The notes under the pieces are model-generated. The model was not told the DNA's origin. It saw only the letters and a list, made by a program, of their open reading frames with translations, and made no database searches. A DNA stretch of 64,000 nucleotides. Origin: Streptomyces dioscori. Lineage in GTDB: Bacteria > Actinomycetota > Actinomycetes > Streptomycetales > Streptomycetaceae. A program made the position numbers and the translations under genes. Positions 12,552-58,502 of the stretch are shown here, piece after piece (within the stretch, counting starts at the first letter, position 1; each line of letters starts with the position of its first letter). The DNA lies in the NCBI RefSeq assembly GCF_003024195.1, contig NZ_KZ679039.1, forward strand, positions 124,001 to 188,000, in the 5' to 3' direction.

Positions 12552-12672
12552 GAGCGAAAATTGCGATTCGAAAGTTTGGGATCGCATGAGCGAATCGGTG
12601 TGATACGCGGGCACTTGGGCACGCGGACGCCCGGGTGTGCTCATCGGACGAACAGGGTTGAGGACGGCAGTA

Positions 12673-14354: not shown

Positions 14355-15215
14355 ATGGCCAGCCACCCCGACCCATCGTCGCTGCCGAGCCCCGTGACCA
14401 CGGCGGGCCGAGACGGCCTCGCCGCGATCCTCGCGCGGCCCCGCAAGGCCGTCCTCGCCTTCGACTTCGACGGCACGCTCGCGCCGATCGTCCCCGACCC
14501 CGAACAGGCCCGCGCCCACCCGGACGCCGTACCGGCCCTGGCGGCGCTGGCCCCGAAGGTGGCGTCGGTGGCCGTGGTCACCGGCAGGCCGGCGTCGGTC
14601 GCCGTGCGGTACGGCGGCTTCGCCGGGGTCCCGGGCCTCGACCACCTCGTCGTGCTCGGCCACTACGGGGCGGAGCGCTGGGACGCGGTCACCGGTACGG
14701 TCCGGGCCCCCGCGCCGCACCCCGGCGTCGCCGCGGCCCGCGCCGAACTGCCCGGATTCCTCGACGGCATCGGGGCCTGGCAGGGCAGCTGGATCGAGGA
14801 GAAGGGCAGGGCCGTCGCGGTCCACACCCGCCGCGCACAGGACCCGCAGGCCGCCTTCGAGGCACTGCGCGAACCGCTGGCCCGGCTGGCCCACCAGCAC
14901 GGCCTGATCGTCGAACCGGGGCGCATGGTCCTGGAGCTGCGTCCGGCGGGCATGGACAAGGGCGTCGCCCTCGGCGCGTACGTGCGCGATGTCGGTGCCG
15001 AGTCGGTCATGTACGTCGGCGACGACCTCGGCGACCTGCCGGCCTTCGCCGCCGTCGAAAAACTCCGCTCCGACGGCATCCCGGGCCTCCTGGTCTGCAG
15101 CGGCAGCACAGAGGTGACGGAACTGGCCGACCGCGCAGACCTGGTGGTGGACGGCCCGGAGGGCGTCGCACGACTGCTCACGACCCTGGCCACCCACTTG
15201 GCGCCACCCCACTAG
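14355..15215 (+). CDS. otsB: Trehalose-6-phosphate phosphatase
   Basis: A 286-residue HAD-superfamily phosphatase converting trehalose-6-phosphate to trehalose. Motif I DFDGT has the nucleophile pair Asp37/Asp39. VVTGRP gives motif II, LELRPAGMDKG the lysine region and GDDLGDLPAF (about 222-231) the Mg2+-binding motif IV. The partner synthase otsA lies just downstream, convergent on the other strand, separated by three REP cores. Confidence 0.93.
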   Translation: MASHPDPSSLPSPVTTAGRDGLAAILARPRKAVLAFDFDGTLAPIVPDPEQARAHPDAVPALAALAPKVASVAVVTGRPASVAVRYGGFAGVPGLDHLVVLGHYGAERWDAVTGTVRAPAPHPGVAAARAELPGFLDGIGAWQGSWIEEKGRAVAVHTRRAQDPQAAFEALREPLARLAHQHGLIVEPGRMVLELRPAGMDKGVALGAYVRDVGAESVMYVGDDLGDLPAFAAVEKLRSDGIPGLLVCSGSTEVTELADRADLVVDGPEGVARLLTTLATHLAPPH

Positions 15216-15235
15216 GAAGCCCGCCAGGGCCCCCT

Positions 15236-15349
15236 GAGGGGCGCGGGGAACAGCGCAATCTTTTGCCTTTAGGGGGCGCGGGGAACGGCGCAATCTTTTG
15301 CCTTCAAGGGGCGCGGGGAACTGCGCGACCAGCCCCCACCCGCCCGCAG
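15236..15349. repeat. Three REP-like cores between otsB and otsA
   Basis: Three reverse-oriented cores (ggggcgcggggaactgcgc type) are joined by the linker CAATCTTTTGCCTT and end in gaccagcccccacccgcccgc. They probably serve the terminator region of the convergent pair. Confidence 0.9.
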
Positions 15350-15366
15350 ATGACCACGACCCGGCG

Positions 15367-16791
15367 TCAGCCACCCGCCCCCGCGGAGCGCAGCGCGTGC
15401 AACTGGTCCAGGAACCACTGCGCCGGAGGCAGCGCGGTCGCCGCAACAGCCAACCGCTTCGTCCGCTCGGCCCGCTCAGCGAGAGGCACCGTCAACGCCT
15501 CGTGCAACGCCTCCGCCGTGGCCGACACGTCGTACGGGTTCACGACAACCGCGTCCTCGCCCAACTCCTCATACGCCCCCGCCTCCCGCGACAGCACCAG
15601 CACGCACCCGTCGTCGGACACGACGGGAACCTCCTTCGCGACGAGGTTCATCCCGTCACGGATGGGGTTCACGAGGGCCACGTCGGCCAGCCGGTACGCC
15701 GCGAGCGAGCGCGCGAAGTCGTCCTTCACGTGCAGCACGACCGGCGTCCAGCCGTCCGTCCTGTACACGGAGTTGATCTCGTCGGCGACCCGCTGCACCT
15801 CGGCCGTGTAGTCGCGGTACACCGCGAGGTCCTGCCGCGACGGGTACGCGAACGCCACGTGCACCACCCGCTCGCGCCACTCGGGCCGGTCGTCCAGCAG
15901 CTGCCGGTACGCCAGCAGGCCGCGCACGATGTTCTTCGACAGCTCGGTGCGGTCCACCCGCACGACGGTCTTCCGGGGGCTGCCGTCGGGCGCGCTGCCG
16001 ATCTGCTCGCGCAGCGCGGCCATCCGTTCGTCGACGTCCGCGCGGTGCGAGCGCTCGCGCAGGAAGTCCGCGTCGGCGCCGAGGCCGTGCACGCCGATCT
16101 GCGTGTCCTGGTCGAAGTCGTCGCCCAGTACGGCCCGACAGCACTCCGTGAACGCGTCCGCCCACCGCCGGGTCAGGAACGCGGCCCGGTCGGCGCCGAG
16201 GATCCCGTCGAGGACCTTCGCCGCGATGTCGTCCGGGAGGAGCCGGAAGTAGTCCGGCGGGGCCCACGGGGTGTGCGAGAAGTGCCCGATCCGCAGGTCG
16301 GGACGGAGTTCGCGGAGCATCCGCGGGACCAGTGTCAGGTGGTAGTCCTGTACGAGGACCGCGGCGCCGTCCGCCGCCTCCTCGGCCAGTGCCTCGGCGA
16401 AGGCCTGGTTGTACGTCTCGTAGGCCGCCCACTGGCGCCGGAAATCCGCGTCGAAGACGGGTTCCAGGGGGGTCTGGTAGAGCATGTGGTGGACGAACCA
16501 CAGCGCGGAGTTCGCGATGCCGTTGTACGCGGCGGCGTGGGTGTCGGCGTCGATGTCGAGCATCCGGACGCCGTCCTCGCCCACGCCGCGCCGGACGGCC
16601 TCGCGGTCGCCGTCACCGAGGGCCGAGCAGACCCACAGGGCGCCCGCGTCGGGGCCGATGGCGGAGAGGCCCGACACGAGTCCGCCTCCGCCGCGCTTGG
16701 CCGTGAGCTCGCCGGACTCGTCCTTCGTGTACGAGACCGGGCCGCGGTTGGACGCGACGAGGACGGGGTGTGTGCCGTGGGTGGGAGCCAT
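15367..16791 (-). CDS. otsA: Trehalose-6-phosphate synthase (GT20)
   Basis: A 474-residue glycosyltransferase joining UDP-glucose and glucose-6-phosphate. It shows LVASNRGPVSY with the GGGGLVSGL loop at the N-terminus, VLVQDYHLTLVPRMLRE, GHFSHTPW, RVDRTELSKNI and the C-terminal donor site NPIRDGMNLVAKE. Length and motifs match OtsA. With otsB it forms the two-step osmoprotectant and spore-carbohydrate pathway. Confidence 0.93.
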   Translation of the reverse strand: MAPTHGTHPVLVASNRGPVSYTKDESGELTAKRGGGGLVSGLSAIGPDAGALWVCSALGDGDREAVRRGVGEDGVRMLDIDADTHAAAYNGIANSALWFVHHMLYQTPLEPVFDADFRRQWAAYETYNQAFAEALAEEAADGAAVLVQDYHLTLVPRMLRELRPDLRIGHFSHTPWAPPDYFRLLPDDIAAKVLDGILGADRAAFLTRRWADAFTECCRAVLGDDFDQDTQIGVHGLGADADFLRERSHRADVDERMAALREQIGSAPDGSPRKTVVRVDRTELSKNIVRGLLAYRQLLDDRPEWRERVVHVAFAYPSRQDLAVYRDYTAEVQRVADEINSVYRTDGWTPVVLHVKDDFARSLAAYRLADVALVNPIRDGMNLVAKEVPVVSDDGCVLVLSREAGAYEELGEDAVVVNPYDVSATAEALHEALTVPLAERAERTKRLAVAATALPPAQWFLDQLHALRSAGAGG

Positions 16792-47323: not shown

Positions 47324-47935
47324 ATGACTTCTCGTGTGTTGACTGTCGGGTTTGACCTCGACATGACCCTCATCGACTCCCGGCCCGGGATCCGGGCCTG
47401 TTACCAGGCGCTTTCCGTGCGGACGGGGACCTTCATCGACGCCGACCTCGCCGTCACCCGGCTCGGGCCGCCGCTCGCGGACGAGTTGGTCAACTGGTTT
47501 CCGGCCGAGGAGGTCGCGGCCATGGCGGACGTCTACCGGGAGATGTACCCCACCCACGCCATCGCCCCGACGCCCGCGATGGCCGGCGCCCGTGAGGCGA
47601 TCGCGGCGGTACGGGCCGCCGGCGGCCGGGCGATCGTCGTCACCGCCAAGTACGAGCCGAACGCCAAGCTGCATCTCAGCCATCTCGGCATCGACGCCGA
47701 CGCGGTCATCGGCGACCTGTGGGCCGAGCGCAAGGCGGAGGCCCTGCGCGAGTACGACGCGGGCGTCTACGTCGGCGACCACACCGGCGACGTACGCGGC
47801 GCCCGTACCGCCGGAGCGCTGTCCGTCGCGGTGGCCACCGGCCCGTGCGACGCGGAGGAACTGCGCGCGGCCGGCGCCGACGTGGTCCTCAAGGACCTGC
47901 TGGAGTTCCCGAATTGGCTGGCAGCCCACCAGTAG
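47324..47935 (+). CDS. HAD-superfamily hydrolase (phosphoglycolate phosphatase-like)
   Basis: A 203-residue HAD enzyme. Motif I is FDLDMTLIDS with Asp11 and Asp13. Motif II is VVTAKYEPN, where the usual Ser/Thr is present. Motif III Lys lies in AERKAEAL and motif IV is YVGDHTGDVRGA. The short helical cap is of the phosphoglycolate phosphatase type. The substrate is unknown. An in-frame ATG three codons upstream (47315) is an equal alternative start. Confidence 0.88.
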   Translation: MTSRVLTVGFDLDMTLIDSRPGIRACYQALSVRTGTFIDADLAVTRLGPPLADELVNWFPAEEVAAMADVYREMYPTHAIAPTPAMAGAREAIAAVRAAGGRAIVVTAKYEPNAKLHLSHLGIDADAVIGDLWAERKAEALREYDAGVYVGDHTGDVRGARTAGALSVAVATGPCDAEELRAAGADVVLKDLLEFPNWLAAHQ

Positions 47936-47939
47936 GGGC

Positions 47940-48188
47940 TCACAAACCTCCGCGTGCCTGCCGGCGGCCGTCGGCGATCGACCGGAACACCCCCGCTCCC
48001 GCGATGAGGAATCCGACGCCCATCAACATGCTCAGACCGAACATGTACGTAGGAAAGGGCGTCGTGTCGAGCAGCAGCGGGGCCACGGTGACCAGAGTGG
48101 CCACAGCTCCGACGAAGAACACGATGGCACCGGCACGGATGAGTCGTTCTCCGGCCGCGGCGGAATTCGGTTGGGTTTTGTCACGCAC
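47940..48188 (-). CDS. Small integral membrane protein
   Basis: An 82-residue protein with two hydrophobic helices (RAGAIVFFVGAVATLVTVAPLLL and YMFGLSMLMGVGFLIAGAGVF). GTG 48188 is taken as start because VRDKTQPNSAAAGERLI gives a soluble N-terminus before the first helix. It is convergent with the HAD gene and divergent from the interrupted cold-shock gene. No function known. Confidence 0.75.
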   Translation of the reverse strand: MRDKTQPNSAAAGERLIRAGAIVFFVGAVATLVTVAPLLLDTTPFPTYMFGLSMLMGVGFLIAGAGVFRSIADGRRQARGGL

Positions 48189-48233
48189 TCGACCAGGGTA
48201 GTTCCCTGCCCTGAGGAACAATCCGGCGACGTC

Positions 48234-48261
48234 TTGTCAGCAGCCGCCGGACCATTAGCCT
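48234..48261 (+). promoter_or_regulatory. Candidate native csp promoter, now upstream of attL
   Basis: TTGTCA (48234-48239), 16 bases, TAGCCT (48256-48261). It precedes a leader of about 120 bases and the interrupted cold-shock start at 48384. In the integrated state it reads toward the element's integrase. Confidence 0.5.
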
Positions 48262-48383
48262 TGGTACAGGCGGGTCCGACGACCCGCTGTAGTGCTGTAC
48301 GGACCTGTTTCCCGAGCAGTTTCAGCCGAAGTCTTGAAGTCTTTCCGACGCAGTTTCCGACGAGTACGAGGACGAGGACAGAC

Positions 48384-48404
48384 GTGCCTACCGGCAAGGT
48401 CAAG
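48384..48404 (+). other. attL of the integrated element
   Basis: Shares the exact 12-base core GGCAAGGTCAAG (48393-48404) with attR at 56411-56422, and upstream bases GCC-AC also match (18 of 20 in total). The core encodes GKVK of the cold-shock protein. Confidence 0.85.
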
Positions 48405-48416
48405 CCAGTTACCTAG
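48384..48416 (+). pseudogene. 5' remnant of interrupted cold-shock gene
   Basis: GTG at 48384 followed by codons for PTGKVK, identical in amino acids to the start of the intact cold-shock gene at 56402, then element sequence (PVT) and a TAG stop at 48414-48416. It is the native start of the gene, cut after codon seven by integration. Confidence 0.85.
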
Positions 48417-48443
48417 GCACACAGACTCCGCTAGCCTCCCCTC

Positions 48444-50054
48444 ATGACACCCGGTCTGCGCTACCTCGCCTGCCTGCGCCTCTCTGCCGACTCGGACGGC
48501 TCTACGTCCATCGAGTGGCAGCGTGGCGTCATCCGCCACTACGTGGCCGCTCCACACCTGTCCGGCATCCTGGTGGGCGAGGCAGAGGACACCGACGTCT
48601 CAGGCTCCATCTCTCCGTTCAAGCGTCCGCGACTCGGTAGGTGGCTCACGTCCCGCGCGGATGAGTTCGACGTGATCATTGCAGCCAAGATGGACAGGCT
48701 CACCCGTCGCTCGATGCACTTCAACGAACTCTTGGAATGGGCGCAGCAAAACGGCAAGTACATCGTTTGCGTGGAGGAGGGGTTCGATCTTTCCACCCCT
48801 CAGGGCAAGATGATGGCTCGTATGACTGCCGTCTTTGCTGAGGCTGAGTGGGACACGATCCAGGCACGCATCCTGAACGGCGTACAGAGCCGTCTGGAGA
48901 ACCGTTCATGGCTTACAGGCGCTCCGCCTACCGGCTACCGCATCAAAGCCGTGGAAGGAGGCAAGAGGAAGGTTCTGGAGATTGACCAGGACTTCCACCC
49001 TCACGTGGAAGAGATCTTCTCTCGTGTCCGTGAGGGTCAGTCCACACACAGGATTGCCCGAGACTTCAACGGTCGTGGCGTACTCACGTGGGGAGACCAC
49101 CTCAGGACGTTGAAGGGGGAGGAAGCCAAGGGGACACAGTGGCAGTCCACCATCATCAATAAGTTCATCCGCTCCTCATGGGTTCCCGGTATCTACGCCT
49201 ATAAGGGTGAGGCTGTCTTGGATGATCAGGGAGAGCCGGTCATTCTCCCGGAAAAGCCTCTCGCGTCCATGGATGAATGGGCAGACCTTGTCGACAGGAT
49301 CAAACCGGCACCCAAACCTGTAGGGGCGGAAATCCGTACAGGTGCAAAGAGTTTGCTTGCTGGTATTGCTCGGTGCGGTGAATGCGACGCGCCGGTTACC
49401 TCGCTGCTCGGCTCAGGTCACACCAGGAAGGACAACACGAAAGTTCCTGGTCACAGGTACTACCGCTGCTCCAACAAGTTCAAGGGAGGCGACTGTTCAA
49501 CAGGTCTCTACGTCCGTGCTGACGTGCTCGATGCATGGGTTGACCAGCAGATTCGGGAGAGCGTAGGCACGTGGGAAATGTACGAGCGTGCCGGTACGGG
49601 ACCTAGTCAGGCAAGGGAACTCCAGGAAGCAAAAGCACGACTGGATAACCTGGAAGCAATGTACATCGCAGGAGAGTACGACGGGGAGGGGCAGGAAGAG
49701 TCGTACATGCGAATGCACAAGGGTCTGTCGGCAAAGGTGGCTCTACTGGCTAAGCAGGAAGCGGACAGGGCTAACCCGGCTCTGAAAGCCACAGGTAAGA
49801 AGTACGGGGAAGTCTGGGAGTCGAAAGACCAGGAAGACCGTAGGGAATTCCTCCGTACCTATGGCGTAAAAGTCTGGGCTTGGGATAAGGGGACTGACGA
49901 GAAAGATAAGGGAATGGTTATGGATCTGGGAGATATTCAGACCATGGCAAATGAGTTGGCGCTTTCCCGCCCCGGAAAGAAGAAGATGACGAGGCTGGTC
50001 GTCAGTCACAATACAGATAAGCAATTGTGGAAGGCATTGGAGTACGCCAGGTAA
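48444..50054 (+). CDS. int: Large serine recombinase (integrase)
   Basis: A 536-residue integrase. The N-terminal catalytic domain (YLACLRLSADSDGSTSIEWQR; nucleophile Ser14) has AAKMDRLTRR and the TPQGKMMARMTAVFAEAEWDTIQARI helix. The recombinase domain follows, then a zinc ribbon (CGEC at 311-314, YYRCSN and GDCSTG), a coiled-coil segment (about 395-450) and a C-terminal tail. This matches unidirectional phage-type integrases. It is positioned 40 bases from attL and reads away from it; ribosome-site support is weak. The reverse reaction would need a separate directionality factor, perhaps one of the small proteins here. Confidence 0.95.
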   Translation: MTPGLRYLACLRLSADSDGSTSIEWQRGVIRHYVAAPHLSGILVGEAEDTDVSGSISPFKRPRLGRWLTSRADEFDVIIAAKMDRLTRRSMHFNELLEWAQQNGKYIVCVEEGFDLSTPQGKMMARMTAVFAEAEWDTIQARILNGVQSRLENRSWLTGAPPTGYRIKAVEGGKRKVLEIDQDFHPHVEEIFSRVREGQSTHRIARDFNGRGVLTWGDHLRTLKGEEAKGTQWQSTIINKFIRSSWVPGIYAYKGEAVLDDQGEPVILPEKPLASMDEWADLVDRIKPAPKPVGAEIRTGAKSLLAGIARCGECDAPVTSLLGSGHTRKDNTKVPGHRYYRCSNKFKGGDCSTGLYVRADVLDAWVDQQIRESVGTWEMYERAGTGPSQARELQEAKARLDNLEAMYIAGEYDGEGQEESYMRMHKGLSAKVALLAKQEADRANPALKATGKKYGEVWESKDQEDRREFLRTYGVKVWAWDKGTDEKDKGMVMDLGDIQTMANELALSRPGKKKMTRLVVSHNTDKQLWKALEYAR

Positions 50055-50071
50055 TTCACTGCAAAGAGAAA

Positions 50072-50106
50072 GGGCTCCGCTGAATAGCGGGGCCTTATTC
50101 TTTTTC
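50072..50106 (+). terminator. Integrase terminator
   Basis: GGGCTCCGCT / AGCGGGGCCT stem (one G-U) with a GAAT loop at 50072-50095, followed by TTATTCTTTTTC. Confidence 0.88.
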
Positions 50107-50124
50107 TGAGTTGTTTGCGAATTC

Positions 50125-50170
50125 GGACCACCCCTACCTTTAATAGGTCGAATTCATTTAGGGGTGGTTC
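50125..50170. repeat. Inverted repeat downstream of integrase
   Basis: GGACCACCCCTA (50125-50136) and TAGGGGTGGTTC (50159-50170) can pair over 12 bases (one G-U) around an AT-rich 22-base loop. It may act as a terminator or protein site. From 50171 to 50552 I see no convincing gene; 50297-50309 has a small GCCCT..AGGGC hairpin. Confidence 0.6.
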
Positions 50171-50552
50171 GGTCTTCCTCGTGCTCAGGACTGCCAAGGG
50201 GATAGGCAGTAGCCTTTCAGTGCTTGACCAGGGGTTTTCTCTAACCTTGACAGATCTCTGGTTGCTCTGTATCACGCGTGCGCGCCCGTTATTGCGCCCT
50301 AAGTAGGGCCTGTAAGGGTTGTTATAGGGAGTAGGTAATTCTCTCCCTAAAGGGGATAGGGGGTCTGGGGGAAGGGGGGTGATCTTGAGGGGCTTGGTGC
50401 TCTTCCGGTGGAGCGCTGACGATCCTCGTACCCCTGGAATCGCCGTACGGTCCCCTGAGGCTCTATTGGGGTCATGGACCGGGGGCTTGGGCGGCAGAGC
50501 GCTCCGGGACCGCCTGAGGGGCACTCAGGGCCGTTCGTGGGGGCGTGGAGCC

Positions 50553-50800
50553 TCAGAGGCTTAGTGGGGGAGCGTCCGTGACGTAGTTGCCCTGTCCGAC
50601 TTCCAGGCGTAGCCACCCCTCGGCGCGGAGCGCTACGACCGCCTTCTGTGTAGTGGCTTGGGCCGTGCCGTACTCCGCTGCCAGTGCGACCGTTCCGGGG
50701 AAGCGCGCTCACCAGGTGACCACTCGCCAGCGCGCAACCGGCGGCGCAGGTCGTCGGCAATCTGCGGCCAGAGGTTCCGGGAGCGGTCAAGATCAGCCAT
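50553..50800 (-). pseudogene. Frameshifted small GntR-type regulator
   Basis: From ATG 50800 the frame encodes a winged-helix start (RNLWPQIADDLRRRLRAGEW SPGER) and then shifts. A 2-base excess (GCGC at 50703-50708) must be skipped to restore the rest (FPGTVALAAEYGTAQATTQ, KAVVALRAEGWLRLEVGQGN) to the stop at 50553. The repaired product would be about 81 residues, a GntR DNA-binding domain with no ligand domain, typical of actinobacterial mobile elements. Either a real null allele or a sequencing error. Confidence 0.8.
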
Positions 50801-50894
50801 ACCGTCAGCCTCTGCGGTATCGCAGATCTCTGCTACCGCGCTTACGCGTAACCGCATAAGCTCAGCTCACACCGGTTGTGAGGAGCTGAGGACA

Positions 50895-51227
50895 GTGAAC
50901 GACCGAGCAAGCGCACTGAACACGGACGGACGGAGTCACGTACGGCTCTTGCCCTGGAAGGGGCCGGAGGGGAAGCCAGCGCATCTGATCGCGGACAGCC
51001 CGTACTCTCCGCTTTCCCTCCTGGCGGACAGGGTCGAGAGCCAGCAGATCAACAACGCTGCGGTCATCGTGGAGTTGGCGCGGCCGATGGTGACTCCGGA
51101 AGCCAAGCTCACGGCGGATGAGCTGAGGTGGATTGCCGGACGGCTCATCGAGAGCCTGACAGAGGTTCTGAACGTCGCTGAGAGCCGCGCACAGAGAATC
51201 CCCGACCACGAGGAGCCGGGGGAGTAG
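50895..51227 (+). CDS. Element protein of unknown function, divergent from gntR
   Basis: A 110-residue protein: HVRLLPWKGPEGKPAHLIADSPYSPLSLLADRVESQQI followed by two helices (AAVIVELARPMVTPEAKLTADELRWIAGRLIESLTEVLNVAESRA). GTG 50895 has GAGGAC upstream. Proteins of this shape are often found beside small GntR genes in Streptomyces mobile elements, so it could be a partner, but no function is known. Confidence 0.7.
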   Translation: MNDRASALNTDGRSHVRLLPWKGPEGKPAHLIADSPYSPLSLLADRVESQQINNAAVIVELARPMVTPEAKLTADELRWIAGRLIESLTEVLNVAESRAQRIPDHEEPGE

Positions 51228-51240
51228 GTCAATCACTCAG

Positions 51241-51280
51241 AGAGCCCTCAGACGCTTCGCACAAGCGGTCCGGGGGCTTC
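51241..51280 (+). terminator. Probable terminator
   Basis: Imperfect hairpin from GAGCCCTC to GGGGGCTTC around a CTTCGCACAAG loop, 14 bases after the stop of the preceding gene. Confidence 0.5.
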
Positions 51281-51348
51281 CTCATGCCCAACCGCAGAGG
51301 TTCCTCAAATCCGCATACTTCGGTACTGGCTACGGGCATTCTGAGTCT

Positions 51349-51882
51349 ATGTCTACTGCTGAATGGGCTCTAGTTGTAGCTGTGGTCGCAGCTTTTGCCG
51401 CTGTAATGAATATGATCGCATCTTGGGCTACATATAGACGTGCATGCGCCCGTCCTCGAATGGTTCTGGAGCCGTGCGTCGAGCACTTGGATGGTGAGTT
51501 GGTGGTGGTCTGTAAGGTTCGTTTTGTAAGCAGCCGCCCGACTCCTGTCCTCATTGAGTCGCTGAGGGCAACACAGGAAAAGAACCACCTATCCACCGAT
51601 AATGATATCGAGATGGAAATTGAGGGTGCTGATAAGAATGAACTTCCCGCATCTGACGCACTTGTGTGGAAGGTAGTGATTCGTGCCGGATCGATTGCAC
51701 CTTTGGGGAATGTGCAGATGGTTGCTCGTCTTTTGGACGGCACTTATGTCGTCCCGGATGAATTTGATCAGATGCTGCTAGATGCGAAATTGGGAACCCT
51801 GGAACGGGAGTACCGGCTAAGCCGGATGACTGAGGATGAAAGGCAGGAAGTGTTGGGGAGGCCGCGTTCTCTTCTCATTTAG
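51349..51882 (+). CDS. Membrane-anchored element protein, unknown function
   Basis: A 177-residue protein with one N-terminal transmembrane helix (EWALVVAVVAAFAAVMNMIASWATY) and a cytosolic beta-rich part (ELVVVCKVRFVSSRPTPVLIESL, IAPLGNVQMVARLLDGTYVVPDEFDQMLL). AT-rich codons set it apart from chromosomal neighbours. No family is recognised. Such small single-pass proteins in mobile elements are sometimes exclusion or defence factors, which is only a possibility here. Confidence 0.7.
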   Translation: MSTAEWALVVAVVAAFAAVMNMIASWATYRRACARPRMVLEPCVEHLDGELVVVCKVRFVSSRPTPVLIESLRATQEKNHLSTDNDIEMEIEGADKNELPASDALVWKVVIRAGSIAPLGNVQMVARLLDGTYVVPDEFDQMLLDAKLGTLEREYRLSRMTEDERQEVLGRPRSLLI

Positions 51883-51888
51883 GTGTAA

Positions 51889-51931
51889 GAGGGCGCTCGG
51901 TTCCCTGTCGGAGCCGGGCGCTCTTCTGTTT
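51889..51931 (+). terminator. Terminator after membrane-anchored protein gene
   Basis: Hairpin GAG..CGCTCGGTTCC / GGAGCCGGGCG..CTC (with G-U pairs) followed by TTCTGTTTCC. Confidence 0.65.
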
Positions 51932-52012
51932 CCAGAAGCGGAATGGGTCATTCTCGTTTGTCAGTGCTGGATGAGATGATGTAACTACCCCAAAGGAAGG
52001 GAGGTAGACAAC

Positions 52013-52216
52013 ATCAGTAGACCAATAAGTAAGCCAGCGAGGAAGTTGAAGGCGGGTGACCATCTGAGGCTCTGGAATGGGAAGACAGTAGAGATTCTGT
52101 CCATCGAGCCAGGGACGAACCAGTCAGGAACCAAGTGCTTGATTCTGACGCTGTACAAGGCAGGAAAGATGGCCGTCAAGACAGGGCGTGTCATGACGAT
52201 GAATTATCCAGAGTAG
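52013..52216 (+). CDS. Small protein with possible AUC start
   Basis: An open frame to TAG at 52214-52216 encodes about 67 residues: KPARKLKAGDHLRLWNGKTV, EILSIEPGTNQSGTKCLILT, LYKAGKMAVKTGRVMTMNYPE. This looks like a small beta-barrel, with Lys-rich surface and alternating hydrophobics. A strong ribosome site AAGGGAGG ends 8 bases before an ATC codon in frame at 52013 and no ATG, GTG or TTG is near; TTG at 52043 is a poorer alternative. A terminator follows at 52234. The protein reading is well supported; the start is uncertain. Confidence 0.6.
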   Translation: MSRPISKPARKLKAGDHLRLWNGKTVEILSIEPGTNQSGTKCLILTLYKAGKMAVKTGRVMTMNYPE

Positions 52217-52233
52217 TAACTACTCTGGGAAAA

Positions 52234-52275
52234 GCCGGTATCTCCGAAACTCGGAGGTATCGGCACTTCTGTTTT
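52234..52275 (+). terminator. Terminator after small protein
   Basis: GCCGGTATCTCCG / CGGAGGTATCGGC (G-U pairs included) with loop AAACT at 52234-52264, then ACTTCTGTTTT. Confidence 0.85.
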
Positions 52276-52340
52276 AGGGGGTAGACATGAGTAACTACTT
52301 CTAGTCCAGACACCTACGGAACTACCCAGAAAAGCAGGAG

Positions 52341-52456
52341 TCGCGTATAGAATTCCTTTGGAAAGCATATGTAGTAGCCTTTTCGATTATGAAAGAAAGG
52401 GAATTCCGTATCACGAGCCGGCCGAGGTATTCCATATTCAATGGAATAGCAATAGA
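52341..52456. repeat. AT-rich region with GAATTCC inverted repeats
   Basis: GAATTCCTTT near 52349 and AAAGGGAATTCC near 52395 form an inverted repeat, with ATTCC/GGAAT copies again near 52428-52447. The region is clearly AT-rich and lies directly downstream of the replication-like gene. It could be an iteron-like origin. Confidence 0.45.
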
Positions 52457-52490
52457 GAAGTCCAGGGAATTCGCATCCCTGGACTTTCTC
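52457..52490. terminator. Bidirectional terminator
   Basis: AAGTCCAGGGA (52458-52468) / TCCCTGGACTT (52476-52486), then TCTC on the plus side and TTCTC-type bases on the minus side. It ends the minus-strand replication-like transcript (stop at 52511). Confidence 0.8.
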
Positions 52491-52510
52491 ATTGGCGCTA
52501 ATCACTTCCT

Positions 52511-53629
52511 CTATCCATTACCTCTGATTCTCTCGTAATTGGCCAGTCGGGCAATGCCCGCAGAGGTAGTAAGCGTGTGGTCGTGCGTCTTGCGAATTAC
52601 CTTCTGTGCTTGCTCGATCTTCTCTCTATCCTTGCGTGCCTGGTCTCTGACAAGCATCGCCTTGAGTAGACGTGCGTTGTAGTCCTCATCGGACTCCCCG
52701 GCCCGCCTGAGAGGCTTCCAGACGTCCTCTGAAGGCTTCTGGGGAGTCTCAGGCTCCGATGCCTCAGGCTCTGCGCCAGAGGCGCGTACAGAGGCATTGC
52801 GAGGTGCGGGTACTCGATCAATTCTCTTCTTGGGAGTGAAGGAGTAACCACGCTTCTTAGTTGCACCAGAGGGAGGAGACGCGTGAGCGTCGACTACGTC
52901 ACCAGCGGAAGAGATAGGAGCGGCGAAGCCGTGACTTTCGTCAGCCAAGGTAGAGGAGCCAACTTCCTCAAGAGCTTCGTTAGCTAGTCCACCAAGGGGA
53001 GGAGTCATAGTCTCTGCCAAGGGTTTTCCCTGGTTCTCCTCTGGTAGCTCTTCGGAGCGCAGCTCCGTACTTGTACCTGTTTCATGTGGAGCTATTTCAA
53101 TGGAGCTATTTACAGTGCGGTTTTCCTCACTTGAGGTTGTGCGGTTTTCCGCGTTAGGGGTAGGGAGGTTTTCCGCACTACCTCTCTTGGCTGCCTTCTT
53201 ACCTATTACTACTAGCTGAGTGAAGGTGTTGACCTTGTTGAGGGCTTGGTACCAGGAAGGGAACTGGACTGCATAGACGTTGTTGATTCCCTTGCTGGTC
53301 TTGCGGTGAACAATTTTGACGTAGCCCTTTAGATCTAGGCTGGTAACGGTCTCCTGCGCCTGTCTCTTGCTGCGGTTGGTCTCGTTACCGATTGTTTCGA
53401 TAGAGGGGAAGGCGATACGGCACCAATCGCGGTTCTTCGCGTTGTAAAGCTCCGGGTTCGGGTTACCTGCCTTGTCGTGAAGGTAGCTGAGTACGCGATA
53501 TTCGGCGTCCGACAGGTTTGAGTCCTGCGCCATCTTCTTAGGGACGATCACAAAGCTTCCGTCGCGGTTCTCGTAGCCTGGTCGTGTGTCCGTGAACTCG
53601 ATGAGTTCCCTTCCGACTGTGTCTGTCAT
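52511..53629 (-). CDS. Winged-helix replication-initiator-like protein
   Basis: A 372-residue protein. The N-terminal 135 residues carry a winged helix of the phage/plasmid replisome-organiser type: FVIVPKKMAQDSNLSDAEYRVLSYLHDKAG, AFPSIETIGNETNRSKRQAQETVTSLDLKGYVKIVHRK and NVYAVQFPSW. A long hydrophilic Ser/Glu/Pro-rich middle follows and ends in a basic helical tail (YNARLLKAMLVRDQARKDREKIEQAQKVIRK). This layout suits DNA binding and helicase loading. It is the largest gene on the minus strand of the element, preceded by four very small proteins. Confidence 0.7.
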   Translation of the reverse strand: MTDTVGRELIEFTDTRPGYENRDGSFVIVPKKMAQDSNLSDAEYRVLSYLHDKAGNPNPELYNAKNRDWCRIAFPSIETIGNETNRSKRQAQETVTSLDLKGYVKIVHRKTSKGINNVYAVQFPSWYQALNKVNTFTQLVVIGKKAAKRGSAENLPTPNAENRTTSSEENRTVNSSIEIAPHETGTSTELRSEELPEENQGKPLAETMTPPLGGLANEALEEVGSSTLADESHGFAAPISSAGDVVDAHASPPSGATKKRGYSFTPKKRIDRVPAPRNASVRASGAEPEASEPETPQKPSEDVWKPLRRAGESDEDYNARLLKAMLVRDQARKDREKIEQAQKVIRKTHDHTLTTSAGIARLANYERIRGNG

Positions 53630-53810
53630 TCCTGGTATCCTTTATATAGTTCTGGAAAGCTGAGTCCATCGACTCGGCCCTTTTTCTGGACGGTTCGCCG
53701 TTCGACTGTTTCAACATTGGCAATCTCTCGCATGGGTTTGGGTTCGATTGCTGATTCTGGTTCATGATTCGGTACGCTTCTTGGTTCTTTCGCGCGTCGC
53801 TCCTCCGAGG

Positions 53811-53839
53811 CCCCGCTAGTTCATTGCGAACTAGCGGGG
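53811..53839. terminator. Hairpin between small-gene operon and replication-like gene
   Basis: Perfect 12-base stem CCCCGCTAGTTC / GAACTAGCGGGG with a 5-base loop. It lies between the stop at 53870 and the gene starting at 53629, so it may attenuate read-through between the two units. The gap 53630-53810 has a short overlapping frame I do not accept. Confidence 0.8.
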
Positions 53840-53869
53840 CTTTGTCGTTGCGTTGGACAGTTCTTGCCT

Positions 53870-54112
53870 TTAATGGAACTCTAAGCCGTACCGGGTGTTC
53901 CTATTCTTGAAGAGAACTCCTGATGAGTTCTCGCGAGAACTCTGAACCGGCGCAGAATAGAAACCGGCTGTTTGGAGTTCTTTGATGATTGCCTCGTAGC
54001 CGTCTCCGAATTCTTCCAAGAACTCATCTCGCCTCATCAGTTCGCCGGTTCTGTCGAGTTCGGAGTACACGGCTTGCGCCGGAAAGCTCAGTTCACTTGG
54101 GTCTTTCATCAC
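53870..54112 (-). CDS. Tiny winged-helix-like element protein 1
   Basis: An 80-residue protein. PSELSFPAQAVYSELDRTGELMRRDEFLEEFGDGYEAIIKELQTAGFY looks like a reduced winged helix (three helices plus wing) with a C-terminal basic strand (FKNRNTRYGLEFH). GTG 54112 overlaps the TGA of the upstream gene by 4 bases and an ATG follows one codon later, so translation is coupled. Confidence 0.7.
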   Translation of the reverse strand: MMKDPSELSFPAQAVYSELDRTGELMRRDEFLEEFGDGYEAIIKELQTAGFYSAPVQSSRENSSGVLFKNRNTRYGLEFH

Positions 54113-54507
54113 CTGTCCACTAGATAGAGGTGGCTGGAACGCATTCCCATGAAACCGGGAGCGTTCTGCACCTCGTATACCTTGCCCTGGGATTTGAGAT
54201 CATCAAGTACCTGCCGGAATAGCCCTGGAGCAGCGTCAGGCAACATCTGTGAGACATCGCTAGCGACGGTGTCAGTGTCGGCCATCTCTCCCTTAACTGT
54301 GTAGGTCTGGATGACTGAGGTAATTGCAGGAGCTGCGTATTTCAGTGCCTGTTCTCTTTGGTACCGATCAATCATTGCGCGCTGCGCAGAAACTCTTGCT
54401 GCCTCTTCTTCTGATTTCTTGGCCTCACGCTCCGGCGCGGTGGCTACATAGTTCGCCCACCAATTCCCTTCCTGTGTTCCGCTGCTGAATGCGTTGGTGT
54501 TCACCAT
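54109..54507 (-). CDS. Small winged-helix-like element protein 2
   Basis: A 132-residue protein with a helical N-terminus (EREAKKSEEEAARVSAQRAMIDRYQREQAL) and a C-terminal winged-helix-like part (AITSVIQTYTVKGEMADTDTVASDVSQMLPDAAPGLFRQVLDDL, KSQGKVYEVQN). ATG 54507 has GAGGAG upstream. It overlaps both the gene before it (54501-54507) and the gene after it (54109-54112). Confidence 0.72.
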   Translation of the reverse strand: MVNTNAFSSGTQEGNWWANYVATAPEREAKKSEEEAARVSAQRAMIDRYQREQALKYAAPAITSVIQTYTVKGEMADTDTVASDVSQMLPDAAPGLFRQVLDDLKSQGKVYEVQNAPGFMGMRSSHLYLVDR

Positions 54508-54785
54508 AGTGTTGACTCCTCTGTGTCTTTCCTGATCAATTTGTAGCAATGTGGCTTAACGGTGCGGTTCACTCGCAGCCACCCGTGACGCTCTAGTTGA
54601 CTTACTGCTTCTCTGAGGTCTGTTCGGTTCTTTCCTGCCCCGATGGCTTTGGCCAGGTGCTCTTGTGTGAGCCGTCTGGGATCTCCGCCGTACGCCTTGA
54701 TATAGATCCAAAGGAACTGTGCGCGGGGTCCAATCAAGGTGTCATTGAGTAGGTAGACCGGGGTCTCTACTGTCTGCTCTTCCAT
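54501..54785 (-). CDS. Small winged-helix element protein 3
   Basis: A 94-residue winged helix: LNDTLIGPRAQFLWIYIKAYGGDPRRLTQEHLAKAIGAGKNRTDLREAVSQLERHGWLRVNRT. It has the helix-turn-helix and GWL wing of plasmid/phage initiator relatives. It follows AAGGAAGAGG. The C-terminal stop overlaps gene 2. Confidence 0.78.
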   Translation of the reverse strand: MEEQTVETPVYLLNDTLIGPRAQFLWIYIKAYGGDPRRLTQEHLAKAIGAGKNRTDLREAVSQLERHGWLRVNRTVKPHCYKLIRKDTEESTLW

Positions 54786-54821
54786 CCTCTTCCTTTCTGC
54801 AAGTCGTTAGTGTGCCTCTGG

Positions 54822-55013
54822 TCATAGCCAGCCAGATTCCTCTAGCTCCCGTACGCACTCGTCCAGGGATACGTTCGGAGCCTGTCTCAGCTTGAACAGC
54901 GCATCACTGAGCGAATCGTCTTTCAGTGGTAGTCCGGCGCGATAGGCCATGTACGTGAGCTTGGCCGGTAGTGATACGGATGCGTGCCAGATAGGCAACG
55001 TGCTCGTATTCAT
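54822..55013 (-). CDS. Tiny winged-helix-like element protein 4
   Basis: A 63-residue protein: VSLPAKLTYMAYRAGLPLKDDSLSDALFKLRQAPNVSLDECVRELEESGWL. It resembles the same truncated fold with a VRELEESGWL end. Starts at ATG 55013 with CTGGAGAG nearby. It is the first gene of the small-gene operon, separated by 36 bases from the next. Confidence 0.68.
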   Translation of the reverse strand: MNTSTLPIWHASVSLPAKLTYMAYRAGLPLKDDSLSDALFKLRQAPNVSLDECVRELEESGWL

Positions 55014-55131
55014 TAATCTCTCCAGGGGGTCAGTCGGTTATTTCTCTCCGTCTGCCGCACCCTTCTAGATCTAATTATGGCAGATACGCATTCAATGTTG
55101 GTGAGGCCAGGAGTGGCCCGGGATGGCAAAA

Positions 55132-55166
55132 AGCCCTAGCAATCACTATCGGTAATTGCTAGGGCT
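55132..55166 (-). terminator. Terminator (minus strand)
   Basis: AGCCCTAGCAAT (55132-55143) / ATTGCTAGGGCT (55155-55166) with an 11-base loop. On the minus strand it is followed by TTTTTGCC, a classical intrinsic terminator for the small gene at 55194-55394. Confidence 0.88.
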
Positions 55167-55193
55167 CAGTTGGTTGCGCTGCGTAAAACTCGC

Positions 55194-55394
55194 TTATCCG
55201 GCTTGGGGGATTGATCTGCGCCCCGAGCCATTGACATAAGCGGGAAGGATCTTCCCCGACAGGGCTCCCTGGGCGAACGCCGCGCTGCGCCCCTCCATCC
55301 CTCCTGCCAGTTGGCGCAGTGCGCCCCTGATGTTCTGCACCCCTTCCTCGCTGCGCGCTGCCGTCTCGGCTCCCAATCGGTCTACCGCGTCCAT
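55194..55394 (-). CDS. Small helical element protein
   Basis: A 66-residue protein: MDAVDRLGAETAARSEEGVQ, NIRGALRQLAGGMEGRSAAFAQ, then GALSGKILPAYVNG. The pattern is amphipathic helical with no membrane segment. Ribosome-site evidence at ATG 55394 is poor, but a good terminator lies just downstream. The competing frame (55159-55473) encodes a low-complexity Arg/Gly product and is less likely. It could be an accessory recombination factor, but nothing shows this directly. Confidence 0.5.
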   Translation of the reverse strand: MDAVDRLGAETAARSEEGVQNIRGALRQLAGGMEGRSAAFAQGALSGKILPAYVNGSGRRSIPQAG

Positions 55395-55517
55395 GTCGAT
55401 GGGTGCGCCTGGCCCTAGTTCCGTGTCTGTCTCCTCTGGTCTCTCTCGTCTGTCCGGTTCCCTCGCTCCTCACATCTATTGTCTCAAGCTTTGTAGCAAG
55501 CTTGCGCCTGGCGACCG

Positions 55518-55640
55518 CGTCTCAGAAACGGTCGATTGCGGGACTGTCCGGCGAGACGCCTCCCGGACCCCGTATCGGCGTTCAAAACCCGTCTCATAAC
55601 CTCTCTCGATGCCTTGATGTTTTGAGACGGGTTATGAGAC
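55518..55640. repeat. Candidate recombination (res-like) site
   Basis: GTCTCATAAC (55591-55600) and GTTATGAGAC (55631-55640) are inverted, as are AACCCGTCTCA (55586-55596) and TGAGACGGGTT (55623-55633). CGTCTC (55518-55523) / GAGACG (55553-55558) forms a further pair. Several copies of the TGAGAC motif lie just before a resolvase gene, as expected for binding subsites. Confidence 0.65.
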
Positions 55641-55682
55641 ACTTTCTGTGTCGGCAGGGAACATCAGGGAGGGGAACGGATC

Positions 55683-56237
55683 ATGGCGGTCATCGGATAC
55701 AAGCGGGTCAGCGCCAAGGCTCAGCATGCTCAGCTTCAGGAGGACGCTCTGAGCGCGGCCGGTTGCTCCAAGGTCTACGAGGACAAGGCGTCCGGGAAGA
55801 ACGCGGAGCGCCCTGGTCTGCTCGCTGCTCTCGACTACATGAGGGAAGGCGACACCCTCTGTGTGTGGAAGCTTGACCGGTTGGGCCGCTCAACTAAGGA
55901 CGTGCTGACGACTGCTGAGGTCTTGCACGCCCATGGAATCGCGCTCCGCATTCTTACGGGAACTCTCTCCGGTACCTACTCGCCGAAGGGGGAGGGGAAG
56001 TTCTTCTTCACGATGATGGCTGCCTTTGCTGAGTTGGAGCGAGACATGATCATTGAGCGCACGCACGCCGGACTGGCGGCAGCCAAGGCGCAGGGGCGTG
56101 TGGGTGGGCGCCCGTCCGTCATCACTGAGGACGTGCTGACTGTCGCCAAGGCTCGTAAAGCCAAGGGGGAGAGCATCACTGCCATTGCCAAGGCGCTTGA
56201 AGTCTCCCGCGCGACGCTCTACCGGCACATCGGGTAG
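55683..56237 (+). CDS. Small serine recombinase (resolvase/invertase family)
   Basis: A 184-residue serine recombinase. YKRVSAKAQ gives the catalytic Ser10; VWKLDRLGRSTKDVL, GEGKFFFTMMAAFAELERDMIIERTHAGLAAAKAQGRVGGRPS and a C-terminal HTH (KAKGESITAIAKALEVSRATLYRH) complete the Tn3-resolvase layout. Length and domain order are normal. It probably resolves multimers of the element or inverts a segment. Start at ATG 55683 follows GGGAGGGGAACGG. Confidence 0.93.
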   Translation: MAVIGYKRVSAKAQHAQLQEDALSAAGCSKVYEDKASGKNAERPGLLAALDYMREGDTLCVWKLDRLGRSTKDVLTTAEVLHAHGIALRILTGTLSGTYSPKGEGKFFFTMMAAFAELERDMIIERTHAGLAAAKAQGRVGGRPSVITEDVLTVAKARKAKGESITAIAKALEVSRATLYRHIG

Positions 56238-56401
56238 CCCCAACGGTCCCTCTGCGCCCCTGCCTTCACTAGGTGGGGGCTCAGTCTTGTTTTCAGGCGT
56301 GATTAAGCCCGTGTGTCGGTGGGGAGAGCCTCGGTAGGCTGTTCAGCGGCATTCTGACAAGCGTCCGGCCCCGTCCGGGACCGATCGAGGGAGCGTGTGC
56401 T

Positions 56402-56422
56402 TTGCCGACTGGCAAGGTCAAG
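56402..56422 (+). other. attR of the integrated element
   Basis: The 12-base core GGCAAGGTCAAG is at 56411-56422. Unlike attL, its left side (TTGCCGACT) provides a new start codon and codons 2-3, so the cold-shock frame is restored. Confidence 0.85.
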
Positions 56423-56785
56423 TGGTTCAACAGCGAGAAGGGCTTCGGCTTTCTCTCCCGCGACGACGGCGGCGACGTCTTCGTTCATTCCTCGGTCCTG
56501 CCCGCCGGAGTCGATGTTCTCAAGCCGGGGCAGCGGGTGGAGTTCGGTGTGGTCGCCGGACAGCGCGGTGACCAGGCGCTCTCGGTGACGCTCCTGGACC
56601 CCACGCCCTCGGTCGCGGCCGCCCAGCGCCGCAAGCCCGACGAACTGGCCTCCATCGTCCAGGATTTGACGACCCTCCTGGAAAACATCACCCCGATGCT
56701 GGAACGAGGCCGCTACCCCGACAAGGCCTCAGGCGCAAAGATCGCGGGCCTGTTGCGCGCGGTGGCGGACCAGTTGGACGTATAG
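56402..56785 (+). CDS. Cold-shock domain protein, 5' end rebuilt by the element
   Basis: A 127-residue protein: a cold-shock domain (PTGKVKWFNSEKGFGFLSR, DVFVHSSVLPAGVD) followed by a helical C-terminal extension (ELASIVQDLTTLLENITPML, KIAGLLRAVADQLDV). TTG 56402 is now the start, with GAGGGAG upstream in element DNA. At the left edge the same seven codons start with GTG, so the protein is unchanged but its promoter and leader now come from the element. Lying beside mqnD it belongs to the core genome. Confidence 0.92.
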   Translation: MPTGKVKWFNSEKGFGFLSRDDGGDVFVHSSVLPAGVDVLKPGQRVEFGVVAGQRGDQALSVTLLDPTPSVAAAQRRKPDELASIVQDLTTLLENITPMLERGRYPDKASGAKIAGLLRAVADQLDV

Positions 56786-56814
56786 CCGACCTGGTATCCA
56801 ACGGGTACCGGCCC

Positions 56815-56840
56815 GGGCTGCGCCCTCATGGGCGCAGCCC
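56815..56840 (+). terminator. Terminator after csp gene
   Basis: GGGCTGCGCCC / GGGCGCAGCCC with a TCAT loop, 30 bases after the stop; overlaps the start of a REP unit. Confidence 0.8.
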
Positions 56841-56842
56841 GC

Positions 56843-56909
56843 ATGAGGGGCGCGGGGAACTGCGCGACCAGCCCCCACCGGACCCGCACCCGCACCCGCA
56901 CCCGCACTC
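56843..56909. repeat. REP-like repeat and CGCACC tandem
   Basis: Inverted core gaggggcgcggggaactgcg with the tail gaccagcccccaccgg, followed by about five copies of a 6-base CGCACC unit (56885-56907). It sits between csp and mqnD. Confidence 0.85.
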
Positions 56910-56932: not shown

Positions 56933-57838
56933 CTAGGGAAAGTCCAGCGCCCCCGGGGCGAGCGCGGGCACAAGACCTTCCGCCGCCGCCCGCGTGAGAA
57001 GGCCCCGGACCGCCGCGTACCCGTCCTCGCCGAGGTCCGCCGTGAACTCGTTGACGTACAGCCCGATGTGCTGATCGGCCACCGCCGCGTCCATCTCCTG
57101 CGCATGCTCCATCACATACGCCCGCGAGGCCTCGGGATCGTCCCAGGCGGCCCGCACGGACGCCCGTGCGGACTCGGCGAGCAGCCCCAGAGTGGCCTCG
57201 CCCAGCGCCCGCCGGGCGATGATCGCGCCCAGCGGGATCGGCAGCCCCGTCGTCCGCTCCCAGTGCTCACCCATGTCCGCGAGCTTGTGCAGACCGTAGT
57301 TCTGGTACGTGAAACGGGCCTCGTGGATGACCAGTCCGGCGTCCACCTTCCCGTCCCGTACCGCGGGCATGATCTCGTGGAACGGCATGACGACGATCTC
57401 GCCGACCCCGCCGGGAACCGTGTCCGCGGCCCACAGGCGGAACAGCATGTACGCGGTCGACCGCTCGCTCGGCACGGCGACCGTGCGGCCGGTGAGGTCC
57501 ACGCCCGCCTCCCGGGTGAGGACCAGCGGCCCGCAGCCCCGCCCCAGAGCGCCCCCGCAGGGCAGCAGGGCCCATTCGTCCAGGACGTACGGCAGGACGG
57601 CGTACGACACCTTCAGGACGTCGAACTCGCCGCGCTCGGCCATGCCGTTGGTGATGTCGATGTCGGCGAAGGTCACGTCCAGCGCGGGCGCCCCCGGGAT
57701 CCGGCCGTGCGCCCAGGCGTCGAAGACGAAGGTGTCGTTCGGACAGGGCGAGTACGCGATCTTCAGCGGCTGCGTCTCGGAGGACTGCGAGGGCTGCGTG
57801 GGCTGAGGCGTCTGCGAGGGCTCAGTGGGTGAGGTCAT
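56933..57838 (-). CDS. mqnD: 1,4-Dihydroxy-6-naphthoate synthase
   Basis: A 301-residue periplasmic-binding-fold enzyme of the futalosine menaquinone pathway; it converts cyclic de-hypoxanthine futalosine to 1,4-dihydroxy-6-naphthoate. KIAYSPCPNDTFVFDAWAHG, DITNGMAERGEFDVLKVSY and the His of GLVIHEARFTYQNYGL are diagnostic. It starts at ATG 57838, overlapping the 3' end of mqnB by 17 bases, so the two are an operon. An N-terminal Pro/Gln/Ser extension of about 20 residues is unusual. Confidence 0.95.
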   Translation of the reverse strand: MTSPTEPSQTPQPTQPSQSSETQPLKIAYSPCPNDTFVFDAWAHGRIPGAPALDVTFADIDITNGMAERGEFDVLKVSYAVLPYVLDEWALLPCGGALGRGCGPLVLTREAGVDLTGRTVAVPSERSTAYMLFRLWAADTVPGGVGEIVVMPFHEIMPAVRDGKVDAGLVIHEARFTYQNYGLHKLADMGEHWERTTGLPIPLGAIIARRALGEATLGLLAESARASVRAAWDDPEASRAYVMEHAQEMDAAVADQHIGLYVNEFTADLGEDGYAAVRGLLTRAAAEGLVPALAPGALDFP

Positions 57839-58502
57839 GTGGGTTCCAACTCTCCAGTACGGGCGCAAGCTTCCCGAAGGCCCCGGTGAGTGCCGCGAGG
57901 GCCTCGCCGATCCGCCAGGCGGCGCGGTCCCGGGGGCCCACGGGATTGGACACGGCACGGATCTCCAGGACGGGGACGCCGTGCGCCGCGGCGGCCTCCG
58001 CCACCCCGAAGCCCTCCATGGCCTCGGCGAGCGCGCGCGGGTGGCGCCGGCGCAGTTCCACCGCGCGCGCGGCGCTGCCGGTCACCGTGCTGACGGTCAG
58101 GACGGACCCCTGACGTGCTCCGGTGACGGCCGCGATCTCTCGTACGAGTGAATTCGGTGGCCGGTGCGTGACGGTTCCGAACCCCAGTTCGGTGACCGGG
58201 ACGAACCCGTCGGCGGTTTCGGCGCCGAGGTCCGCGACCGTGATCTCGTCGGCGAGGACGAGCGAGCCGACGGGCGCGTCGGGCTGGAACCCGCCCCCGA
58301 TACCGGCGGAGACGACCAGGTCGTACGGCTCACCGCCCAGCGCGGCCGCGGTGAGCGCGGCGGCGGTCGACGCTGCGGCGGCGGCCGGTCCCACGCCACC
58401 GGCGAGAGGACGGAGTACCGACGACGCCGGTGCCGACGCAGTGAACGCCGCCGCCACCGCGTCCCGTTCGGCGGGGACGGCGGTGGTTACGAGGACACGC
58501 AT
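57822..58502 (-). CDS. mqnB: Futalosine hydrolase
   Basis: A 226-residue nucleosidase-fold enzyme that releases hypoxanthine from futalosine in menaquinone synthesis. YDLVVSAGIGGGFQPDAPVGSLVLADEI and VSTVTGSAARAVELRRRHP, AEAMEGFGVAEAAAAHGVPVLEIRAVSN give the purine nucleosidase pattern including the catalytic ME pair. Starts at ATG 58502. It is the upstream gene of mqnBD. Confidence 0.93.
   Translation of the reverse strand: MRVLVTTAVPAERDAVAAAFTASAPASSVLRPLAGGVGPAAAAASTAAALTAAALGGEPYDLVVSAGIGGGFQPDAPVGSLVLADEITVADLGAETADGFVPVTELGFGTVTHRPPNSLVREIAAVTGARQGSVLTVSTVTGSAARAVELRRRHPRALAEAMEGFGVAEAAAAHGVPVLEIRAVSNPVGPRDRAAWRIGEALAALTGAFGKLAPVLESWNPHDLTH

Follow-up and report, generated by a model that had tools for sequence, protein, structure and literature searches.

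A cold-shock protein gene, csp, in a 64,000-nucleotide stretch of Streptomyces dioscori (contig NZ_KZ679039.1, positions 124,001 to 188,000; hereafter the window) has an 8.0-kb block of lower-GC DNA ahead of it, and the two lie between a small membrane-protein gene and an mqnD-like gene. This block is very probably an integrative element whose serine integrase recombines an attP site with codons 1–7 of csp; the gene would thereby be rebuilt behind a foreign leader, which in some species seems to outlast the element. At the level of sequence, comparison of csp loci demonstrates where the element inserts, that the reading frame is rebuilt, that the site has been occupied repeatedly and that elements exist in differing states of loss.

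Junctions, integrase and attachment sites

At the left edge the native csp start is orphaned: its codons 1–7 (attL, 48384..48404, plus strand, GTGCCTACCGGCAAGGTCAAG) read GTG CCT ACC GGC AAG GTC AAG with a perfect core, after which the sequence departs from csp. At the right edge (attR, 56402..56422, plus strand, TTGCCGACTGGCAAGGTCAAG) a TTG start and codons 2–3 supplied by the element precede the shared core with the remaining csp codons 4–7, and TTG CCG ACT GGC AAG GTC AAG continues into csp. The two sites share 12 exact bases (GGCAAGGTCAAG) and are identical at 18/20 positions over the longer repeat; the start codon differs (GTG vs TTG), codons 2 and 3 differ synonymously, and the peptide M-P-T-G-K-V-K is kept. 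The rebuilt gene (56402..56785, plus strand) encodes 127 amino acids (aa) with a CSD domain, and 95/100 relatives gave csp matches at E 1e-40 or better. GC content per 500 bases was 0.66-0.78 outside the block (mostly above 0.70) and 0.48-0.67 inside. An earlier reading made from the sequence alone (the sequence-only reading) had described the 12-base direct repeat at the ends of an 8-kb lower-GC block, as well as an element-supplied TTG start with leader, ribosome site and the same peptide; both descriptions stand.

Just inside attL, an open reading frame (ORF) of 536 aa (48444..50054, plus strand) carries the Resolvase, Recombinase and Zn_ribbon_recom domains (PF00239, PF07508 and PF13408, all above Pfam cut-offs), in agreement with the serine integrase named by the sequence-only reading. 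It matched the PHROG 95 integrase family at E 1.7e-90 and shared 76-89% identity in the best segment with 12 named Streptomyces-type loci. The domain set, the 12-base shared att core and a near-symmetric attP are those of a large serine recombinase (serine integrase), and the protein is predicted to recombine attP with attB. The closest solved structure among its relatives was 9iu2 (molecule listed as 'Integrase'; residues 6-507, E 2.6e-50), which we take to be the Bxb1 integrase; this best solved relative is nevertheless distant in sequence, and the attB of Bxb1 is not known to be csp. Matches in phage records were all below 60% identity (33.5% for the best among the matches listed), and those in plasmid records were likewise below 60% only.

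Joining the two element ends gave a predicted attP that was most symmetric at the GT of GGCAAG-GT-CAAG, with 15/23 positions, a value attained in 17/2000 shuffles. The element side of attL (48405..48424, plus strand), the other attP arm, is near-identical in other elements and mirrors the left attP arm about this GT, where crossover probably takes place. Most type-1 elements, i.e. those with a leader of the window's type, bring CCGACT as codons 2–3. At two loci, L047 (18001-18021) and L186 (genome G471), the attR codons 2–3 are instead the host's own attL codons (CCCACC and CCAACC); gene conversion or attP variants may be the cause.

Empty sites and exchange of the csp leader

The sequence-only reading had placed the insertion after csp codon 7 and suggested a search for the uninterrupted locus in other Streptomyces; such loci were indeed found. 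csp was matched in 59/60 same-genus genomes at E 1e-40 or better, and 58 were typable (the contig of G028 begins inside the gene). Fifty-two of the 58 had an empty site with a native start (51 GTG and one ATG, in G032), four a type-1 leader and two a type-2 leader, described below. The window flanks, once joined, reached up to 123/140 ungapped identities with native csp starts of other Streptomyces. Gene order (membrane protein, element if present, csp, mqnD) is the same with and without the element: the membrane-protein ORF (47940..48221, minus strand) is found upstream of csp also where the site is empty or holds a solo leader, and the mqnD-like ORF (56933..57958, minus strand; the name is that of the sequence-only reading) lies downstream in the compared loci.

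A close integrase was present in 8/392 sampled Streptomyces genomes and in 9/293 genomes sampled from the order, every one of the nine belonging to the same genus; the two samples overlap, and the window's own genome is counted in each. Removal of duplicates left 18 distinct integrase loci. In all 18 the integrase is next to the membrane-protein gene, and 16/18 have a TTG-started csp downstream, the contigs of the remaining two (L039 and L048) ending before csp.

The stranded native leader (48234..48383, plus strand) contains a presumed promoter, TTGTCA (48234-48239), N16 and TAGCCT (48256-48261), and a hairpin read from the sequence (arms 48270-48276 and 48281-48287, plus strand). Native loci have in common TTGTCA-N16-TAGCCT, a hairpin (GCGGG/CCCGC) and, ahead of the start, a stretch rich in purines. 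The hairpin pattern occurred in 52/52 native leaders vs 0/48 element-type leaders; therefore the element exchanges the entire regulatory leader and leaves the protein unchanged. Across native loci (L009-L037, L068-L096), the hairpin sits just past the presumed promoter and its inner pairs vary. An Rfam scan of 47900-56900 gave no match at the gathering threshold, and the hairpin is possibly an uncharacterised 5′-UTR (untranslated region) element. The nearest sampled relative of the window on an mqnD tree, G032, has a native csp start; its locus (L009) keeps the native promoter and hairpin with extra bases ahead of the ATGCCGACGGGC start, perhaps the scar of a past event.

The element-borne leader (56290..56401, plus strand) has a presumed -10 box, TAGGCT (56335-56340), ahead of the ribosome site (GAGGGAG, 56387-56393). 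Its features are conserved across 25 type-1 leaders, which share a block around GGTAGGCT or GGTAAGGT followed by GAGGGAG before TTG; consensus folding of these leaders gave no convincing common structure. This conservation, together with the need to transcribe csp, suggests that the leader has promoter activity and that csp is transcribed from the element.

We thus propose that the integrase would recombine the element attP with codons 1–7 of the conserved csp, probably at the central GT. The attP arm landing at attR would bring a substitute 5′ end, comprising a leader with its presumed promoter, the ribosome site, TTG and synonymous codons 2–3. The rebuilt csp would encode the same peptide under a different regulatory leader, and its native promoter would be left stranded 8 kb upstream. 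Afterwards, a mutated attL would end excision, the cargo would erode and, in some species, the foreign leader alone would remain, presumably because csp depends on it.

Shortened elements, solo leaders and rival explanations

Among 14 elements with both ends, the att core was perfect in attL in four and in attR in 13, the exception carrying a synonymous change. These four perfect attL cores belong to the longest elements, those of the window, L038, L042 and L047 (in ascending order of size 7084, 7180, 8018 and 8060 bp). In every one of the ten shorter elements, of approximately 2076 to 6014 bp, the attL core had 1 to 6 changes; two additional loci, 2.2 and 4.3 kb long, conform to this pattern.

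A type-1 leader, counted where the match began at query position 83 or less, precedes csp in 19/392 Streptomyces genomes. Eight of these 19 have a close integrase; 11 are without one (no match at E 1e-120 or better). Two of the 11 (G211 and G265) retain pieces of the small serine recombinase described below, and G398 retains weak integrase pieces. In G134, G267, G408, G392, G379, G338 and G418, tblastn found no integrase in the long inserts that separate the flank from csp. The sequence-only reading had named, as a finding that would refute it, empty-site strains carrying the TTG version next to a different upstream gene. This came true in part: TTG starts are present in strains that have no close integrase, although their locus is the same, and recombinase fragments persist in three of these strains. 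From these comparisons the leader swap seems to outlive the element in some species, and we read the integrase-less TTG strains not as a refutation but as fossils of comparable events.

Several observations weigh against this account. Searches of viral contigs found no close relative of the integrase and no att pattern, and neither a free circle nor a viral copy was found. A promoter and terminator scan of 56100-56450 returned no sigma-70 consensus and no terminator; because it was empty, no terminator is claimed despite an inverted repeat near 56253-56291. The attR codons 2–3 of L047 and L186 are not predicted by a fixed crossover at GT. The separation of attL states by length would arise 1 in 1001 times by chance had it been set beforehand, and it was drawn after seeing the data; where attL is decayed, element lengths are only approximate, and in L043 the one attL change falls on the side of the element. 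The integrase pieces of G398 fell below threshold in a second search. Finally, 8/11 type-1 genomes without the integrase showed no recognisable element gene near csp.

This last observation favours a spread of solo leaders by ordinary csp allele exchange between species instead of decay in place. Remnants in 3/11 genomes, one of them weak, and elements of 2.0 to 8.1 kb forming a graded series at the same site speak for decay, and we consider allele exchange rather unlikely as the general explanation. Solo leaders without remnants could nevertheless derive from it, and the two processes may both operate.

A doubtful possibility, of about the same weight, is that the element leader is kept for a different regulation of csp, for instance in the cold, and not merely for expression. 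Replacement of the complete native leader, conserved hairpin included, would agree with such adaptive rewiring, as would conservation of the element leader among elements and solo leaders; a simple need of csp for any functional leader would, however, produce equal conservation.

Two further csp leader types were counted by exact pattern and their numbers are lower bounds, the pattern missing known type-1 cases including the window. The type-2 leader, ending in GGTGCGTGCT before TTG, was present in at least 20/392 genomes, with the variants TTGCCTACC and TTGCCGACT. It is joined to a second integrase in G361 (53.5% over residues 165-510) and in G542, a genome of the order sample outside the 392 (59.4% over 47-510). 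Because both matches are without the N-terminal part, no intact integrase of this second family was seen. A third leader type occurred in at least 3 of 392 genomes, with no integrase found nearby. Taken together, csp 5′ ends of types 1–3 were found in 42/392 sampled species; at the sequence level, type 1 has the best-documented mobile origin, that of type 2 is supported and that of type 3 presumed.

The mqnD tree covered 71/100 distinct loci, 29 being dropped without an mqnD stretch of 500 bases; it was built by a quick method, is unrooted (gain and loss are indistinguishable) and leaves 22/68 inner branches open. Native and element-type starts changed 18 times on it, at least 10 changes being forced by starred branches, and native rows were slightly clustered (52/500 shuffles as low). 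Therefore, either the site was taken repeatedly or alleles moved. These alternations also bear on the opposite direction of events, in which the TTG leader would be the old native leader of some Streptomyces lineages, the element having acquired its attP arm from a csp of this kind and the integrase-less genomes being native. The missing close integrase in 11/19 type-1 genomes, the unseen intact second-family integrase and the grouping of eight type-2-leader species on the tree (support 93, no native member) fit this direction. Against it, besides the 18 changes, the TTG side bears one attP arm, which host DNA does not need, recombinase pieces are retained in G211 and G265, and integrase relics lie at the site in two type-2 genomes; we regard it as improbable.

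The att repeat is by itself weak evidence because the block contains 58 direct-repeat families, of which it is one, but a chance repeat or an assembly artefact, with two csp starts unrelated to any element, is practically dismissed by common empty sites and by junctions recurring in independent assemblies (16/18 distinct integrase loci with both sides seen).

More broadly, at least two related serine-integrase families might have swapped the csp leader and then vanished, such that about a tenth of the species (the 42/392 above) start csp from mobile-element sequence with changed regulation; we advance this repeated and lasting promoter replacement tentatively, as somewhat short of an even chance. 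Related species are then predicted to drive this one cold-shock gene from leaders unrelated to one another. The loci form a natural series, from the empty site through the full element, the crippled element and fragments to the bare leader, for following how a mobile leader becomes a host leader. The conserved attB and the integrase group could serve Streptomyces engineering, the target gene staying whole.

Known systems and element cargo

A rebuilt frame with an element-supplied start codon and leader places the csp element with 5′-end-replacing elements of the dusA/SXT kind. The dusA-specific islands are found in Proteobacteria and their integrases are of the tyrosine type, whereas the csp element resides in Streptomyces with a serine integrase; assignment to the dusA integrase family was rejected, the recombinase at csp being of the serine type rather than a tyrosine integrase targeting dusA. 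SXT is a large conjugative element with a tyrosine integrase; the csp element, in contrast, spans 8 kb, with no transfer gene recognised among the longer ORFs, which were those scanned (nine vs Pfam and ten vs PHROG). IMEVchUSA3 and related dusA islands likewise target a conserved protein gene at its 5′ end and supply it with a new promoter together with N-terminal coding sequence, and expression of the target was demonstrated for one island (PMC8409611, PMC4482086). The N-terminus is altered by IMEVchUSA3 (61% identity over 35 residues), unlike the unchanged peptide at csp (PMC8409611, PMC4482086). SXT, an integrative and conjugative element at prfC, is another precedent for 5′-end replacement (PMC8409611), and with both precedents the earlier claim that such restoration is unusual was too strong.

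Streptomyces phage serine integrases (PhiC31, PhiBT1, TG1, SV1, PhiJoe, PhiOZJ, PhiWTR, R4 and Samy) similarly combine a large serine recombinase with an attB in a protein gene, none being reported at csp in the available text (PMC12924846). For PhiBT1, insertion is described as inactivating the gene (PMC7460540). The terms 'cold shock' and 'csp' are absent from the available main text of PMC12924846, and the single 'cold shock' mention in that of PMC7460540 concerns promoters. The statement of the sequence-only reading that no serine integrase is known to have been described with this attB is thus consistent with the open-licence literature searched, including these two papers. This literature gave no report of a serine integrase at the csp attB, of repeated use of the site or of left-behind leaders, and larger island or recombinase surveys may list this integrase; a search for left-behind promoters, narrow in its wording, also found none.

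In regulated gene integrity (SPbeta in spsM; HE-PICIs, PMC10111431) the element likewise lies within a coding gene, of a host or of a phage. There the gene is broken until excision (PMC10111431 for HE-PICIs), while csp is rebuilt on integration; this class was rejected for csp, the frame being complete at attR. The same satellite paper states that attP usually bears a replacement for the target gene (PMC10111431). Features setting the csp case apart are the serine integrase, the Streptomyces csp target, the unchanged peptide, two integrase families per site and leaders without an element.

Concerning element class, no capsid, tail or packaging match was obtained among the element ORFs scanned, and a complete prophage was rejected. 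An actinomycete integrative and conjugative element (AICE) is defined by an FtsK-like transfer protein, for which the same ORFs gave no Pfam or PHROG match, and this class was likewise rejected. From gene content, a phage satellite would fit the combination of integrase and replication-initiator-like gene without structural genes. This initiator-like winged-helix protein (372 aa, 52511..53629, minus strand) has PHROG replication-initiation matches (best E 6.3e-9) and an HTH_36 Pfam match below cut-off; no relative was found in the phage collection.

The remaining cargo includes two uncharacterised plus-strand ORFs without a Pfam or PHROG match: 50658..51227, with a likely start further in and 60-70% identical ORFs in L038 and L042, and 51349..51882 (177 aa), with a hydrophobic N-terminus by eye. 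Four small ORFs (80, 146, 94 and 63 aa) from the ORF list occupy 53870..55013 on the minus strand. Parts of this group are common to the window, L038 and L047: relatives of the 80-, 146- and 94-aa ORFs occur in L038 and L047, and one of the 63-aa ORF in L047. Near attR, a small serine recombinase of invertase/resolvase type (184 aa, 55683..56237, plus strand; PF00239 and PF02796; PHROG 125) lies beside this site in all four longest elements, complete in L042 and L047 and truncated in L038. Its pieces adjoin several other leaders, where its 3′ end is often the last cargo remaining. One small element thus holds two serine recombinases of different size (48444-50054 and 55683-56237). The L042 element contains the same pair of ORFs, transposase-like by eye, in two inverted copies (12656-13719 and 14714-15777).

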